Assembly (NCBI GenBank): GCA_029250825.1
Contig: JAQXEN010000050.1
Span: 62,001-126,000, forward strand
Reading direction: 5' to 3'
DNA length: 64,000 bases
Source: Porticoccaceae bacterium
Lineage (GTDB): Bacteria; Pseudomonadota; Gammaproteobacteria; Pseudomonadales; Porticoccaceae
Shown: positions 31,269-39,475 of the stretch, piece by piece
Numbering within the stretch: position 1 is the first letter of the stretch
How the letters are laid out: each line of letters opens with the position of its first letter
Made by a program: the position numbers and the translations under genes
Notes under the pieces: generated by a model
What the model was told of the DNA's origin: nothing
Databases searched by the model: none
The model's input: only the letters and a program-made list of their open reading frames with translations

Positions 31269-31359
31269 GGTGGGATGGCAGAGCGGTTGAATGCACCAGT
31301 CTTGAAAACTGGCTTAGGTTAATAGCCTAACTAGGGTTCGAATCCCTATCCCACCGCCA
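31269..31359 (+). tRNA. tRNA-Ser(TGA), CCA encoded
   Basis: GGTGGGA/TCCCACC acceptor, anticodon loop CTTGAAA, long variable arm, GGGTTCGAATCCC T-arm. Confidence 0.96.
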
Positions 31360-31371
31360 TATCTAGTCGTT

Positions 31372-31399
31372 AAAACCCCTGCAAATGCTGGGGTTTTTT
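31372..31399 (+). terminator. Rho-independent terminator after tRNA-Ser
   Basis: AAAACCCC tgcaaatgct GGGGTTTTTT. Confidence 0.85.
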
Positions 31400-31478
31400 C
31401 GTTTATGGGTATTTAAAATACGTTTGCCTCTAAAGAGCTTGTTGTCAACCAAACGTCGCCCATCGGTTTAACAGGCCT

Positions 31479-32496
31479 TTATAAACAGCGTCTATGGGAA
31501 AACCCTTTGCGCTCACAAACAGATAATTCAGTCTCAACACCCTGGTCACCTTGCTGGACCATCCATGAGGACAACCTGCTCCTTAAAATTGCCACCTCAT
31601 CCTCATAGCCCGGCATATCAATAATATTCTTTTGTTCGAAGGGGTCTTTAACAATGTCATATAGCTCGTACTCCGGCCTTTTCAAATAACGAGCATAAAG
31701 GGTTCCATTGGGGCTTTCTGCATTTTGCAGCTCTTCTTTAAACCAAGGACCATTGGTTAAGATGCTTGAGAATTCACCGCCGGACATTAGGTTATGAATT
31801 AATTTAAGCGATTTGCTACGGACCGATCTGATAGGGTATGCAGCGCCATCGTATATGTTAAAGCTTGTTTGTATTCCAAATACATAATCTTTATGTTCTG
31901 TTTTCTGTCCCATCAAAACTGACTTAAAGCTTTGCCCATCCATGTTTCCGGCACATTATTACTCACTATATCGATCAATGTAGGCACAACATCAACGTAC
32001 TCAATCAGGGCGTTAGATACTGACCCTGGCATTACATTTACAAAAGGAAATGATTTACTCGGGAATATATGCCCCTTACCAGCCAAGCCAACCCGATAAC
32101 CCACATCTCTAAAATAATGAACAACACTTTTGACATCCTCATAAACGCATGTGTGGTTTCCATAAGCGCCGTTTCTAACGGGGTAAAGGCCGGTATATAA
32201 CTGTGATCGAGTAACCGTACACATTGCAGTTGCGGTAAAGGATTGCGTGAACAACATACCTTCTCGAGCTAGTTGATCAATATTGGGGGTAACGGCATTT
32301 TTTGGCAGGTTATCGGAACGTTGGTGGTAGGCTCCCACGTCAAACCAGCTCATATCATCAGCAAGTACCAAACAATATTAGGTGAGCTTGGCACCGATAA
32401 AGTCTCTGCGGGCACAGCGATTGTGGCGCCAAAACTACTGATTATGCAGACACTTAAGGTCAATATTTTTAAGATGTTATGCATATTTGCGCTCAT
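31479..32496 (-). pseudogene. Decayed sulfatase (type I, formylglycine-type) gene
   Basis: N-terminal signal peptide frame MSANMHNILKILTLSVCIISSFGATIAVPAETLSVPSSPNIV, then shifted frame LVLADDMSWFDVGAY...NIDQLAREGMLFTQSFTATAMCTVTRSQLYTGLYPVRNG, internal deletion jumping from GLAGKGHIFPSKS to NALIEYVDVVPTLIDI, then another shift into DGQSFKSVLMGQ...YELYDIVKDPFEQKNI. Confidence 0.88.
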
Positions 32497-32724
32497 TTTA
32501 AGACAACAGCTATATCAAAAGCAGCATCATAGAAAGCCGAGAATTCAACCCTGACCCGTGAGATTGTTACATTCTATGGCGGCTAACCTTTGGTCTTTAC
32601 CGAAGGCTTGGCCTCTGAAGGCAGTTCGTTGTCTGGCGCTTTTAGTTGATTACACTGCAGATGCCGAGGTAGCGGTTGATATTCTCTCAGTAGCACTGGG
32701 GTTCTAGCCTACCTATCCATAAAA

Positions 32725-33063
32725 TCAATTTGAATATGGCGGCAGTTTCTCAACTGGCCGCGTTAGCAAGTGCGGTGCAATAGACAAACCGATGATAGCA
32801 CTGTAACCACTACTCTCTTCTCTATGCACTACCCCTGCTCCGGCGACTAATTTAGTACCCGCTGTTACAGTGATTGAATCACCAGTACTCTGCTCGGTAA
32901 CAGTAAGTTCACCTTTTGTTATATAAATAAGAGAGTCAAAATCGTGCCAGTGAAAGTCATTTTTGATGGCTGGATAGTCGGCAGCAAAAACGTGGTAACC
33001 GGCCTCTTCAATTTGAGCAAGGGCTTCTTCTTTATTTTTAAAACTACTCATCTCAGGCATCAC
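32725..33063 (-). CDS. Cupin domain protein
   Basis: HWHDFDSLIYITKGELTVTEQSTGDSITVTAGTKLVAGAGVVHREESSGYSAIIGLS. Confidence 0.82.
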   Translation of the reverse strand: MMPEMSSFKNKEEALAQIEEAGYHVFAADYPAIKNDFHWHDFDSLIYITKGELTVTEQSTGDSITVTAGTKLVAGAGVVHREESSGYSAIIGLSIAPHLLTRPVEKLPPYSN

Positions 33064-33169
33064 TAATCTCCGTTAGCTTTTTATAGGTTTTGAATTTTTA
33101 GACTAACATTACATAGTTTCTTCGTCAAAACCGCCGAATCAGGAGACGACTAAAGCCCCCAAAGTGTCT

Positions 33170-36100
33170 CTACAGAGCGGGCATCAAATTTTCTATCTCA
33201 GCGGTAATTTCGTCCGCCGACGTCATTGTGGCATCGGATGCAATCACTCCATTAACAAGCATCTCATCCCTGAGACCAAACAGATAACGCAGAATAATAA
33301 GCCCATCAGTCAATGCATCGATTTGACCATTACCATCAATGTCCACAAGATCATCAAGCATGCTGATGCGAGCGGCGATTTCATCTGAAGACGAATAAAC
33401 CGCATCAGAGGCCACAGCCCCGCTGGCCAGTGCATCCCCGGATAAGTCGAACATTCCTCTCAGTATCAGCAGGCCATCGGTTAGAGCGTCATAACGACCG
33501 TTACCATCGATATCTAAGGAACCCGTGGGGATGGTGCCCGCCAAAAACTCTCCAAGGGCGGCCATGCCATCGTTATCACTGTCACTGGCTGCATCGGATG
33601 CATCATTCAAGTCGAGGCCATAGCGCGCTTCCCAGAGGTCTGGCATACCGTCAGCGTCACTATCTAGGGAATAAAGCAGGTTATTGGGGAACGCATCTGC
33701 ATTATTGCCAACACCATCTGAGTCTGAATCAAATTGCTCGGACTGATCTAAGGGAAAGGCATCAGAGGTGTCGGGCACTCCATCGTTATCATCATCAGTA
33801 TCTGCATTATCACCCATGCCATCTGAATCTAAATCGGAGATTTCTGAGCTATCCACAGGAAATGCATCATGCAAATCAATAACGCCGTCATTATCATCAT
33901 CGGGGTCCTGTAAATCTGGCATTCCATCATGATCGGAATCAAGATCTAGGGGATCAAAAGGGTCAGTACCATCGGTTAATTCCTGGATATCCAAGATACC
34001 ATCATTGTCATCATCGGCATCAGCATTGTTACCAATGCCATCGGCATCAGAGTCTAAACTCTCACTGGCATCCAGAGAGAAAGTATCCTCAGTATCTGGC
34101 ACAGAATCATTGTCATCGTCTTGATCATCACTCATTCCCAGTTCAATGCAGTTTTGATCGCAATCGTCAGGGGCTCCATCGCTATCACTATCTAAAAGGT
34201 CTCCGATAGGAATAAATGGAAATCGATCTTGCCCATCGGGAATCGAATCATGATCCCGGTCCGGCAATAATTGGTTTTTACCATAATAGATTTCTAGGCT
34301 ATCAAACCGGGGACAGGTGATGATTACATCTAAATTACCGTCTGAATCAAAATCTGGGGTATAGATGCGATTACAGTTGTTTTCTTGCATAAAATGGCTA
34401 AATGATTTTTTGCTCAGAGACCAACCGGAGTTTAAATTCTGATGCAGAGAAATTGCATGCTCGAAAAGTGGCCCCGGTTTAAGAGTAGAAATGATATCTA
34501 AACGAGAATCGCCATTTAAATCGTTAAAACGAAAGTTTTGATCGTGAGAGGCACCTGTATCCTCGGGCTGGTCATCGGCGAGTTGATATTGTCCATTTTC
34601 TGCATTCCAAGAATATAGTGAAATCAGAAAACGAGCATTAGAAATATGAAACTGATTATTTTCGAGAGTAACCAGCTCAATATCATGATCACCTGTGAGA
34701 TCAATTAATTCCGACTCCCAGTAATGGGATGCAGTAGGGTCTAAAATTCTATTGTCATCGGTAATGGGCTGCTCAGTGTTTCCGTCAAGTCGGAACCCCA
34801 TATCCAATTCAACAGGAGCTGAGGACATATCAAATGAACCCTCTAGCTGATAATACGCGGCGTGGGCGTAGCGTTTAGAGACGAAAGGACTGCCATCAAA
34901 ATATAGCGGATCCACCTCTAAATTGATTAAAATATCGAGATCCTCATCACCATCTAGGTCGACTAAAACCGCATTATAAATACTTACACCTCCAGAGTTT
35001 GGATAGCTGTCGGCATCAAATCCCGACGGATGACGGGCAACACAGGACAGATCACAATCGATCACCACTGGCTTTGGCCAGGCATGTCCGTCGCCGATAC
35101 CAAATAGGAAAAATTCCTCAATTGAATCCCCATCGATATCCCCATGGGTAACGAACTCGGAGGTCATATTGTTCAAATCTAAAAGGGTTTGATTATCGAG
35201 TGCCAATGAATAATTGATTAGCCCAGTTTCGCTACCTAAATAGAGGTGGACTCCACTTATTGAGGGACTATCGGCTGCATAGCTATCATCTTTATGTCTA
35301 GCACCTGACACCAGAAGGTCATCAAAACCGTCACCGTTAATATCGGCAACCACAGTGTCGCGACCTCCCAATGCACCCTCATCTACAAGCACCATTACTG
35401 GGGGTTGATAACTTTCGGCTCCGTAGATTGCCACAACGGATGTAGGGGCGCTGCAACCCGCTCCATTGTTTTCATCGGCTGTCAGAATAAGATCCTGATA
35501 ACCATCGCCATTAAAATCTCCGAACTCATGGCTCTCCATGGCCAAATAATTCGTGCAGCCATCGCCATTGGCGTAAGGAATCGAAGCAAGCAGCTTGAGA
35601 GGGGCTAAATCAAACAAAGCCCGAGCAGAACCACCACTTTGCTGCCAAGGTTGTTCCAAGCTATCAAGCAGATCATTAGGTTCTCTCAATGCGGCAAAAT
35701 CAAAGCCGTCTCTCATATCCGACTCTAAGGATTCTGAAAACTCTGAGGGGCTGACACCGAAGGTGTTTTCAAACGCCTCATGCCAATTATCACTCGACCT
35801 GTACTGATCATAAAAACCCAAAAATACGGATTTCATTCCATAATCATGCACGAGGCGAATTATTCCAACCTCGCTAATACTCGTATAATTTCCCTGCAAT
35901 ATATCGAGGGGAGCGTTGTTTGAGATTAAAAAGGGAATATCATTTTTGAGTCTTTGGTGATAGGTGCCAAATAACTGAGATAGCTGCATGCTTGAAAGTA
36001 AATAGGCAGACAAATACTCCTGTTGGGCGTCACGCCACCAGTCAGGTATAGGTTTAGCCGTTTGCAGCTGCCCACCAATAAGCTCCTCTACATAGGCACG

Positions 36101-36670
36101 AAAAATAGCCACTGCACGTTGATTTTGAAAATCATCAAACTCATCAACAAATATTATCTGGTAGCTGTTATCACCCACTTCGAACTTCAATTGGCGATAG
36201 CCGTTATTTTCATCAGTGAATGGTTCAAGCTGAGATATTAGATTTAACACCTCCTCGTTTGAGCAGAGCTGCGGAAGCAGGCTGCAAACGATTTCTGACG
36301 CAACAGCATCAATTGAATCCTCTCGCTTTACCACCCTCGAAAATACTGATGTCGGACCCAGCAGAGAATTCAGCGCGGAAAAGCGGGCACTGAAGAGTTC
36401 AACCTGTTCTGAACTAAAGGTATTGTTATGTAAATCAAGAGCCCCTTTGACAATGGGTTTGTAATATTGGTAATGCGAATCTAACGGAAGGCTATCTGCA
36501 TTACCTCCCCCTACCCTGTCAAGATCGGTATCGCCGCTCCATTGTTGAGATCCTGAAAAATCCTCAACTTCACTGGCAGCTAAATCTAGAGCAAGCAGAA
36601 ATACAAGGCTGGCTAGTAAAGATGACCACTTAAATAGCGGATAACTTAGTCTCATAGCTATGCTTTCCAT
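33170..36670 (-). CDS. Large secreted multidomain protein: N-terminal peptidase-MA-like region, FG-GAP/VCBS repeats, thrombospondin type-3-like Ca repeats, C-terminal duplicated EF-hand/dockerin-like module
   Basis: Signal peptide (MRLSYPLFKWSSLLASLVFLLALDLAAS); FGDFNGDGYQDLILTADE, DINGDGFDDLLVSG, DLDGDEDLDILIN; DSDSDGAPDDCDQN, DADDDNDGILDIQE, DPDDDNDGVIDLHDAFP; C-term DIDGNGQIDALTDGLIILRYLFGL. Confidence 0.85.
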   Translation of the reverse strand: MESIAMRLSYPLFKWSSLLASLVFLLALDLAASEVEDFSGSQQWSGDTDLDRVGGGNADSLPLDSHYQYYKPIVKGALDLHNNTFSSEQVELFSARFSALNSLLGPTSVFSRVVKREDSIDAVASEIVCSLLPQLCSNEEVLNLISQLEPFTDENNGYRQLKFEVGDNSYQIIFVDEFDDFQNQRAVAIFRAYVEELIGGQLQTAKPIPDWWRDAQQEYLSAYLLSSMQLSQLFGTYHQRLKNDIPFLISNNAPLDILQGNYTSISEVGIIRLVHDYGMKSVFLGFYDQYRSSDNWHEAFENTFGVSPSEFSESLESDMRDGFDFAALREPNDLLDSLEQPWQQSGGSARALFDLAPLKLLASIPYANGDGCTNYLAMESHEFGDFNGDGYQDLILTADENNGAGCSAPTSVVAIYGAESYQPPVMVLVDEGALGGRDTVVADINGDGFDDLLVSGARHKDDSYAADSPSISGVHLYLGSETGLINYSLALDNQTLLDLNNMTSEFVTHGDIDGDSIEEFFLFGIGDGHAWPKPVVIDCDLSCVARHPSGFDADSYPNSGGVSIYNAVLVDLDGDEDLDILINLEVDPLYFDGSPFVSKRYAHAAYYQLEGSFDMSSAPVELDMGFRLDGNTEQPITDDNRILDPTASHYWESELIDLTGDHDIELVTLENNQFHISNARFLISLYSWNAENGQYQLADDQPEDTGASHDQNFRFNDLNGDSRLDIISTLKPGPLFEHAISLHQNLNSGWSLSKKSFSHFMQENNCNRIYTPDFDSDGNLDVIITCPRFDSLEIYYGKNQLLPDRDHDSIPDGQDRFPFIPIGDLLDSDSDGAPDDCDQNCIELGMSDDQDDDNDSVPDTEDTFSLDASESLDSDADGIGNNADADDDNDGILDIQELTDGTDPFDPLDLDSDHDGMPDLQDPDDDNDGVIDLHDAFPVDSSEISDLDSDGMGDNADTDDDNDGVPDTSDAFPLDQSEQFDSDSDGVGNNADAFPNNLLYSLDSDADGMPDLWEARYGLDLNDASDAASDSDNDGMAALGEFLAGTIPTGSLDIDGNGRYDALTDGLLILRGMFDLSGDALASGAVASDAVYSSSDEIAARISMLDDLVDIDGNGQIDALTDGLIILRYLFGLRDEMLVNGVIASDATMTSADEITAEIENLMPAL
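33173..33514 (-). repeat. Two EF-hand/dockerin-like protein repeats at the C-terminus of the 33170-36670 protein
   Basis: DIDGNGRYDALTDGLLILRGMFDL... and DIDGNGQIDALTDGLIILRYLFGLRDEML.... Confidence 0.9.
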
Positions 36671-36938
36671 CAGATATTAGGAAAAGTCTAATTTGGTATA
36701 TTTCTAGCGAAATCTGAGCAATGTGAAATAGCTGCAATTTAATAGCCATCGACCAAAAGTGCTTTATAAGCACCACTTAGAGGTTACACTTATTATTTTA
36801 GTAACCATGCCAAAACCTCAGTAATCCTGCAAATTTAAATAGAAAGCTCTGGCCTGCAGCGCGGTCTATAGGCACAGCTTATTGGATTTACCAATCAGAC
36901 TTAGATAACCTTAACGTCTACTCTGAAGGCTGCTAGCA

Positions 36939-39173
36939 ATGAACGCCAGCTCAATAAAACACTTACCCGCCAAGCTATTATTGGCTCTCACATTAATTAT
37001 TGCCTCCACTATCAACAGCGCCCAGAACCCAGCGGATGCTGTAGTGGATATTGATATCGATGGCAATGGCAATCTAGATGCACTCACTGATGGGCTGCTT
37101 TCCCTAAGGTGGATGTTCGGTCTAAATAACACTGCTCTTACCGATGGCGTGATCGGATCCGGAGCTGTTTATACCACCTCGACAGCAATTGACTCGCGTC
37201 TGATCTCACTGGGCAACAAAGTGGATATCGACAGCGATGGTGAAGTGGACGCCCTCACCGATGGGTTGTTAATACTCCGCTATTTATTTGGGCTGCGCGG
37301 CGACAGTTTGATTGCCGGTGCCTTATCTGAGGGCAGTGATCGCTCTACGGTCAATCAAATTGAAGAGTATATGGCCAGTATAAGTGGAGTCGGGGCCATT
37401 GATTTGATCGACCTCTACTATGGCACCAAAACTCCTAACTCTGCGCCAGCGGCCCCAGACAATATTGAGTTAATAGACTCAAATACAAGGGTCTATGGAC
37501 AGTTAGAAGGTTTAACTCATGAGCCAACAGCAGCCCCAGGGGCCGGCAAGTTTGTTTTCAATCGCGTCTATCGCTCGTTTAAACATGGCTTGGAGTACGG
37601 GCAACAGTTTGGTGTCTTTGGATCTTGGCTGGGCTCCTTTGGCAATAACTCTATCGAGGGTGGCCTCTGGGTTAACCCTAAAACTGCAGGCCCTCACTAC
37701 TACCCTACCCTGCACCTTGCCGGGGTTGGTGACACCTACCACGCCTGCAATGATGTGCAAATGGGCAGCGGTCTCTATGAGCGCGTTATCGGTGATAAAT
37801 GGCTCACTATGATACAGATTTCGAATAAGGTGTTAACCGTTCCCGGGGTTAATATTGCCTTTGATATGGAGCAGCAACCCTTCGAGAACGATAACGGAAT
37901 TTGGATTGGCTCTGGGTGGAGTTACCTCAATCTCAACCACCCGCGTGAGTTTAAATTTTGGATGAGCTTTATCGAGTCCTATGATTATCAGGGCCCGATC
38001 AACGGCTACATGCCAGAGCACTTTAACTGGATCGATCCGGATAAAATCAGCGATGGTCGTTACGCGCAAAATCGGGCTAACTACGGCAATGACTTTGGCA
38101 CCTTTGCCACGCGAGGCTCCAGTGCAAACTGGGGTAATGGCAATGAAAGGATTGGCCTCTCAGCCTATAGTCTTGGGGATGACCGCTATTACGTGCCGGT
38201 GGCTAATCTACCGGATGCCAAGGAGCGAGAGTATCTCTTGGCTCATCCCCAAAGGATTGAAATCGATGCAATGGAGAACTTTTCGGCGGCGCTGAGAACC
38301 AACAATCTCACCGAAACGCTTATTCCTTCCGAGGACCTAGAGCTTATCAATGTCTATCAGAGTACTCACAACCAGCTGAAATTAATCGAAGATATAGCCG
38401 GGCAAGAGCATCGCTTTATGATTGTGCCTTCCTACAGTATTGGTTTTGATAACCTTGGGGGCTTCGTGCAATGGGATCACTCCACCGAGGCCGCCAGAGA
38501 GGCACAGCGTCAACAGAACGGTTATCTTTATGTGCGCAAACTAACCGATAAATGGGTGGTAGAAGACGGCGCCAGCGATGACTATAAAAATCATCCTCAC
38601 AGCTATCAGACAGAATTGATTGCCCCCCCTGATGATCTGGTGCGGGTACCCAGAGTCAACCATCGGTTTTTTAATTATAAAGAACGAGATACCAGCCATC
38701 CGGATTTTAACAACTGGGATACCAACGGCAAAACTCGCTACCAAAAAGTCCTGCAGAATGGCTCAGTGGCAACCTATGTGTGGTTTAAGTTTATTGAGCA
38801 ACCTGCGGTAAAAACCGCTCAGCAAAACCACCCGGAGATCTATACAGAGACTTATCTGGAGGAGCTGCAATCCTACATAGAAACCCTCCACACAACGGTG
38901 AATCAGAACTCCCAGACCAATCCCAGCGATCCCGTGTTTATCAACTATCGCGGTGGCGATAATCCGGAGGATCAAGCCCCCCATCTGGCACGATTGGATC
39001 CGGGCCAGCTAGTAGAGCCGGAGAGCGGTTTTGAGTTGGGCTATGTGCCCGTAGTGATCAGTGTCTACCATCCTCAGCAATACAGTGACAATGGTGTTGG
39101 GATACTCACCGAGCCACACGCAGACTGCTCCAATGGGAATTGGACCAATAGTTACCACCCAGATATTGAGTGA
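36939..39173 (+). CDS. Secreted protein of unknown function with N-terminal duplicated EF-hand/dockerin-like module
   Basis: Signal peptide MNASSIKHLPAKLLLALTLIIASTINSA; two DIDGNGxxDALTDGLLxLR repeats; ~600-aa C-terminal region I cannot assign. Confidence 0.85.
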   Translation: MNASSIKHLPAKLLLALTLIIASTINSAQNPADAVVDIDIDGNGNLDALTDGLLSLRWMFGLNNTALTDGVIGSGAVYTTSTAIDSRLISLGNKVDIDSDGEVDALTDGLLILRYLFGLRGDSLIAGALSEGSDRSTVNQIEEYMASISGVGAIDLIDLYYGTKTPNSAPAAPDNIELIDSNTRVYGQLEGLTHEPTAAPGAGKFVFNRVYRSFKHGLEYGQQFGVFGSWLGSFGNNSIEGGLWVNPKTAGPHYYPTLHLAGVGDTYHACNDVQMGSGLYERVIGDKWLTMIQISNKVLTVPGVNIAFDMEQQPFENDNGIWIGSGWSYLNLNHPREFKFWMSFIESYDYQGPINGYMPEHFNWIDPDKISDGRYAQNRANYGNDFGTFATRGSSANWGNGNERIGLSAYSLGDDRYYVPVANLPDAKEREYLLAHPQRIEIDAMENFSAALRTNNLTETLIPSEDLELINVYQSTHNQLKLIEDIAGQEHRFMIVPSYSIGFDNLGGFVQWDHSTEAAREAQRQQNGYLYVRKLTDKWVVEDGASDDYKNHPHSYQTELIAPPDDLVRVPRVNHRFFNYKERDTSHPDFNNWDTNGKTRYQKVLQNGSVATYVWFKFIEQPAVKTAQQNHPEIYTETYLEELQSYIETLHTTVNQNSQTNPSDPVFINYRGGDNPEDQAPHLARLDPGQLVEPESGFELGYVPVVISVYHPQQYSDNGVGILTEPHADCSNGNWTNSYHPDIE
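37053..37380 (+). repeat. Two EF-hand/dockerin-like repeats at the N-terminus of the 36939-39173 protein
   Basis: DIDGNGNLDALTDGLLSLRWMFGLNNTALTDGVI... and DIDSDGEVDALTDGLLILRYLFGLRGDSLIAGAL.... Confidence 0.9.
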
Positions 39174-39363
39174 TGAAATAAAACAAATGGGTTAAAAAGC
39201 ACTTAATAGAGCCAAGTGGCTCCAACAGCTAAAATTTAATTGGCGGCACCACAGGTGATTTTCCAGTACCAAATAGACTGCCCCTGCAGCCTAAACCCCC
39301 TTTTAGTTCAGTTATCTTCTAAGACTAAGGGTAACAATTGGCGCTATAAGGCGCGTGCCAGTG

Positions 39364-39391
39364 TTAACTTCCCCTGGCTTTTAGCTATAAT
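39364..39391 (+). promoter_or_regulatory. Probable sigma70 promoter of tRNA-Arg
   Basis: TTAACT -16 bp- TATAAT followed by GC-rich discriminator gcccgcgc. Confidence 0.55.
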
Positions 39392-39399
39392 GCCCGCGC

Positions 39400-39475
39400 C
39401 TCCCCTTGGTGAAATTGGATATCACGCTAGCCTCCTAAGCTTGAATTTCAGGTTCGACTCCTGAAGGGGAGACCA
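39400..39475 (+). tRNA. tRNA-Arg(CCT), CCA encoded
   Basis: CTCCCCT/AGGGGAG acceptor, D-stem GTGA/TCAC, anticodon loop CTCCTAA, T-arm TCAGG TTCGACT CCTGA. Confidence 0.9.

Follow-up and report, generated by a model that had tools for sequence, protein, structure and literature searches.

The window analysed here, a 64,000-nucleotide stretch of DNA, is part of a 221-kb contig from a marine gammaproteobacterial genome of 2.33 Mb that belongs to the genus of HTCC2207. A variable island lies within it, bordered on the left by a tRNA-Ser(TGA) gene downstream of rne (31269–31359, plus strand) and on the right by a tRNA-Arg(CCT) gene upstream of rsmE (39400–39475, plus strand). The interval between the two borders (31269–39475) is AT-richer than its surroundings, and in nine other genomes of the genus that have both borders it ranged from 0.5 to 9.2 kb with varying content. 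HTCC2207 has two phage-type tyrosine integrases in its counterpart of this region, close to tRNA-Arg (L112, 10635–13458).

An intact gene for a secreted protein in a variable island

The island contains an open reading frame (36939–39173, plus strand) that starts with ATG, has no internal stop and encodes a protein of 744 residues. Codon preference in its frame was host-like (+0.02 to +0.04 per codon), and four other scored frames gave −0.07 to −0.14. A signal peptide was recognized by eye at residues 1–28 (KLLLALTLIIAST...NSAQ; 36939–37022, plus strand), in agreement with the original prediction of an intact gene for a secreted protein. The signal peptide is followed by two dockerin-like repeats, one at residues 39–62 (DIDGNGNLDALTDGLLSLRWMFGL; 37053–37124, plus strand) and the other at residues 96–119 (DIDSDGEVDALTDGLLILRYLFGL; 37224–37295, plus strand), and then, as had been proposed, by a long downstream region, of which 590 residues are conserved among relatives (37401–39170, plus strand). 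The segment NSAPAAPDNIELIDSN starts at residue 167. The duplicated loop, DxDGxGxxDALTDGLLxLRxxFGL, is dockerin-like by eye; dockerin type I (PF00404) did not match the protein at E ≤ 1 and matched its HTCC2207 homologue with an E value of 0.28. The repeats have matches at eight other places in the same genome, and the remainder of the protein occurs once.

The downstream region had been described as belonging to no recognized family, and sequence searches bore this out. Pfam, NCBIfam and PHROG contained no family for the whole protein or its C-terminal part, residues 155–744 matched no Pfam entry, including carbohydrate-active and carbohydrate-binding families, and PDB sequences gave no significant match to the protein. 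A search of PDB sequences with profiles built from the whole and from the N-terminal and C-terminal parts also returned no match.

The divergent partner of this gene (33170–36670, minus strand) encodes a 1166-residue FG-GAP/TSP3-like protein with a C-terminal dockerin-like pair. Its N-terminal 340 residues are without a Pfam match; the segment WWRDAQQEYLSAYL in this part has a degenerate gluzincin likeness by eye. A sulfatase remnant, also anticipated as a decayed neighbor, lies at 31479–32371 (minus strand) in two ORFs with the middle missing, one matching Pfam sulfatase positions 6–107 (the N-terminal third) and the other only the SGSH_C tail. Seven further sulfatase matches were found in the genome.

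In two other genomes the island also encodes two dockerin-like proteins from divergent genes, but their cargo is different. In G023 (L114, 4846–10823), one protein contains a HEKAH motif (weak Peptidase_Mx) and the other contains PBP and YHYH domains, and the HTCC2207 pair is also unlike that of the window; the cargo of the two genomes together comprises the HEKAH motif, PBP plus YHYH, and collagen-like/S74. The divergent pair of the window is built to the same plan, in which proteins encoded in a variable island combine a dockerin-like tag with cargo that can be exchanged; the tag may serve display. Two proteins (G000:C40:50199–50684 and G000:C25:7647–8138; L108 and L109) share an N-terminal domain that is cohesin-like by eye and has no Pfam match, and the HTCC2207 gene adjoining its family member has the same domain type. 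Such cohesin-like proteins are possible partners of the dockerin-like repeats.

A large bacterial family spanning many phyla

Initial searches detected no relatives in 56 related genomes, 369 genomes of the class and 399 genomes of the phylum, and genome contigs searched with one sequence, viral contigs, phages and plasmids yielded none either. Most genomes of the genus are without a relative of the protein. Extending the search to the order recovered a protein with 60% identity in HTCC2080 and a distant relative in HTCC2207, a further search added one relative in a second Halieaceae genome, and two peptide patterns built on a four-row alignment gave 176 confirmed relatives from ~85,000 genomes, which is a lower bound. 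The protein is therefore not the product of an orphan gene. Its seven near relatives (54–66% identity) are from marine gammaproteobacteria and Henriciella, and the larger family spans Bacteroidota, Planctomycetota, Actinomarina, Verrucomicrobiota and others, covering at least nine bacterial phyla. Ten members were tested, and none matched Pfam or NCBIfam in the family region. These results identify a large, phylum-spanning bacterial family that is unnamed in Pfam and NCBIfam.

The family tree contains three groups, with an internal branch of ~4 changes per site. The group of the window (eight sequences from gammaproteobacteria and Henriciella) sits on a very long branch, the second consists of Actinomarina, Microbacteriaceae and HTCC2207 sequences, and the third, large group consists of Bacteroidota, Planctomycetota, Verrucomicrobiota and Armatimonadota sequences. 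The HTCC2207 member, an unnamed 949-residue protein from the same genus, resembles the protein of the window in having dockerin-like repeats followed by the family region with both conserved glutamates (described below), but it is only 22–27% identical over this region, belongs to the Actinomarina/Microbacteriaceae group and is encoded at a different genomic place. The streamlined marine Actinomarina and their kin retain a member (L037–L039, L043–L046 and L091). At several Actinomarina-type loci an unrecognized gene of ~485 residues lies upstream of the member; the one at L037:5984–7447 is without a Pfam match.

The predicted structure resembles neprosin

The 590-residue region was folded with AlphaFold2, giving a pLDDT of 86.1 and a pTM of 0.90 with the 77-sequence alignment and a pLDDT of 29.6 and a pTM of 0.20 from the single sequence. 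Foldseek against PDB returned only two entries at E < 0.001, both of which are neprosin (9qr8, E = 9.3e-5; 7zvc, E = 6.6e-4; probability 1.00), followed by scytalidoglutamic peptidase (2ifw, E = 8.5e-3, probability 0.69). The TM-score to neprosin was ~0.5 by target, which is borderline, and 0.25 by query, with an rmsd of 12; the value by target suggests that the match covers a neprosin-sized part of a larger domain. In a viral fold library, the polyproteins of strawberry mottle virus (E = 0.12) and of a lettuce secovirus were matched without significance. Carbohydrate-active enzymes were absent from the significant fold matches, and laminin-G and other lectin-like folds were among the weak ones. 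A neprosin-like beta-sandwich is well supported by the predicted model, and the similarity to neprosin is quite probably real. The suspicion of a hydrolase-type fold thus holds, although the closest parallel is a glutamic peptidase and not a carbohydrate-active family. A confident Foldseek match to a characterized family had been named beforehand as the outcome that would refute the region's unrecognized status, and the neprosin matches are such an outcome.

An invariant glutamate pair at the candidate active site

The catalytic pair of neprosin is E188 and E297; the E188Q, E297Q, Q173A and W175A mutants are inactive, H134A, Y136A and Y214A lose ~80% of activity, and T186 holds E188 (PMC9343461). 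We aligned the family with neprosin by MAFFT and counted the residues over 77 sequences (positions in the 590-residue region; add 154 for the 744-residue protein). W230 (position 76; 37626–37628, plus strand), present in 76 of the 77, aligned with W175. The SIEGG motif (37650–37664, plus strand) with E240 (position 86), invariant in all 77, aligned with T186-I-E188-A-G, and at its first residue, S238 (position 84), 74 of the 77 sequences have Ser or Thr. Y267 (position 113; 37737–37739, plus strand), which is Tyr in 66 sequences and Phe in 11, aligned with Y214. All four MAFFT modes paired T186, E188, W175 and Y214 with S84, E86, W76 and Y113, and the spacing between E86 and Y113 is 26–29 in the family versus 26 in neprosin. 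E403 (position 249; 38145–38147, plus strand), also invariant (77/77), is the proposed equivalent of E297 in the WGGE segment, and because of an insertion this pairing appeared in only one of the four modes. At the place of H134 and Y136, the large group has His in 37 and Tyr in 47 of 56 sequences. The family has G74 at the place of Q173, and a nearly invariant Q69 lies five residues off register. Inspected by eye, the segments follow one another in the same order as in neprosin (HxY, xWxP, Q..W, TIEAG, Y, GFVQxN, W....GY.P-helix, GGE). The motif W..[ST][IVL]E[AGV]G..Y, chosen after both families had been seen, was found in 58/85 family ORFs and in 0/5775 other ORFs.

Profile comparisons were not significant. 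PF03080 (cut-off 22 bits) matched neither the whole protein (E ≤ 1) nor the C-terminal region and its pieces (E ≤ 10), nor the genome. Comparison with neprosin by hhalign gave probabilities of 0.2–4% with a thin, three-sequence neprosin profile, and profiles of the whole family or its N-terminal part landed, without significance, on the same SIEGG/TIEAG segment. When sequences to enrich the profile of neprosin were sought in plasmids, phages, viral contigs and 299 genomes, only two bacterial sequence types were added, and family HMMs did not score neprosin clearly above its own shuffles. Homology to neprosin by sequence profiles was thus not significant, and sequence statistics alone are no proof of it. 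Since the profile test fails and the counterparts of Q173 and E297 are uncertain, we do not file the protein in PF03080. The conservation pattern makes E240 and E403, which would face each other, a fairly good candidate for a catalytic dyad.

A C-terminal region absent from neprosin

Beyond E249 the family has ~300 further conserved residues, among which a separate set of positions is invariant (Y459, W461, F464, Q467, P468, Q490, D533, G547, V549 and P550 in the 590-residue numbering). Their core, YxWxxF(I/K)(D/E)QP ... LQxxxExxH ... LD ... GYVPI (38775–39056, plus strand), had no neprosin counterpart, and the ~300 residues had no PDB sequence match. This region is the chief separation of the family from neprosin.

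Discussion

We propose that the gene encodes a secreted hydrolase with a neprosin-like, antiparallel beta-sandwich and a glutamate pair, most plausibly a glutamic-class endopeptidase, a reading to which we give an even chance. That it is a glutamate-pair hydrolase of some kind is likely; that it is specifically a peptidase is evenly balanced. One glutamate of E240/E403 would activate water and the second, in its protonated form, would bind the carbonyl of the scissile bond, and W230, S238 and Y267 would shape and hold the site. The C-terminal region may complete or cap the domain, and the dockerin-like pair may attach the protein to a surface partner. Peptide-bond cleavage, the substrate and the dockerin-like attachment are all conjectural parts of this scheme. 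Because the predicted shape and the invariant glutamate pair resemble neprosin, the protein is probably a digestive enzyme of a new kind, displayed at the cell surface.

A glutamate pair is also classic glycosidase machinery, and the genes around members of the wider family have to do mostly with glycans. At locus L105 a member lies directly after SusC and SusD and before GH95, at L103 it has the same position before a sulfatase, and at L064 it is beside GH115; the members at L105 and L064 are compact, 540-residue forms. Sulfatases are the commonest direct neighbors (8/109); SusD, GH95, GFO/IDH, S8 and M60-like peptidases are less frequent. Of 36 long members, ten carry a SASA carbohydrate esterase fusion, eight a T9SS tail and one a whole GH95. 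A glycoside hydrolase, esterase or lyase of polysaccharide-utilization loci, with the same sandwich and glutamate pair, would account for these links. The significant fold matches, however, are without a carbohydrate-active enzyme and the matched residues (S/T-x-E, W and Y) correspond to the active site of a peptidase, so we regard a glycan substrate as rather unlikely.

A peptidase that clips proline-rich or O-glycosylated backbones, such as those of algal or plant cell-wall glycoproteins, while its neighbors remove sulfate, acetyl, fucose and glucuronate, would unite the peptidase-type site with the glycan-type neighborhoods, and an M60-like peptidase gene adjoins the Microbacteriaceae member at L040. 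This substrate is purely conjectural, however, and within the window the decayed sulfatase is the sole such neighbor; we consider this reading improbable. A non-catalytic, lectin-like binding or scaffold domain would fit a beta-sandwich with lectin-like folds among its weak matches, but two glutamates invariant in 77/77 sequences across many phyla and on a tree with so long an internal branch would be unusual for a binding domain, which makes it very improbable.

The preferred reading, a glutamic-class endopeptidase, can be compared with known systems. Neprosin (Nepenthes; PF03080, MEROPS U74) is an acid-triggered zymogen that cleaves after proline at acid pH. It shares with the family the beta-sandwich, the S/T-I-E-(A/G)-G motif with its catalytic Glu and an upstream Trp, a Tyr 26–27 residues downstream and, putatively, the second invariant Glu after a W..P..helix segment. 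Unlike neprosin, the bacterial family has a 590-residue domain with the additional C-terminal residues and dockerin-like, SASA, GH95 or T9SS modules; an equivalent of the activation peptide was not seen, and Q173 is not clearly present. Eqolisins (scytalidoglutamic peptidase, MEROPS G1) also place a general-base Glu on a beta-sandwich, but their dyad is Gln plus Glu, whereas the family has Glu at both positions in 77/77 sequences and thus does not qualify as an eqolisin. The glutamic peptidase of strawberry mottle virus (MEROPS G3) is reported to have a Glu/Glu dyad like that of neprosin (PMC9147577). Its fold match to the family is non-significant, and its context is unrelated.

A search of the available literature for SAR92/HTCC2207 dockerins or neprosin in polysaccharide-utilization loci found no report. 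As a catalytic class, glutamic peptidases have received little study, and neprosin has mostly been described in plants. Members of the wider family lie in polysaccharide-utilization loci or carry a SASA esterase fusion, so their target may be a glycan or a glycoprotein. We tentatively suggest, with some doubt, that these proteins are an undescribed, phylum-spanning set of Glu/Glu-dyad hydrolases in which the neprosin fold has been carried into polysaccharide-utilization loci, where it would target glycans or else the polypeptide chain of cell-wall polymers that are heavily glycosylated. The family adds candidate neprosin-type enzymes that are repeatedly linked with SusC/SusD, sulfatases and carbohydrate esterases, and it offers a direct test of whether, in the sea, a neprosin-type fold serves to digest proteins, glycans or glycoproteins.
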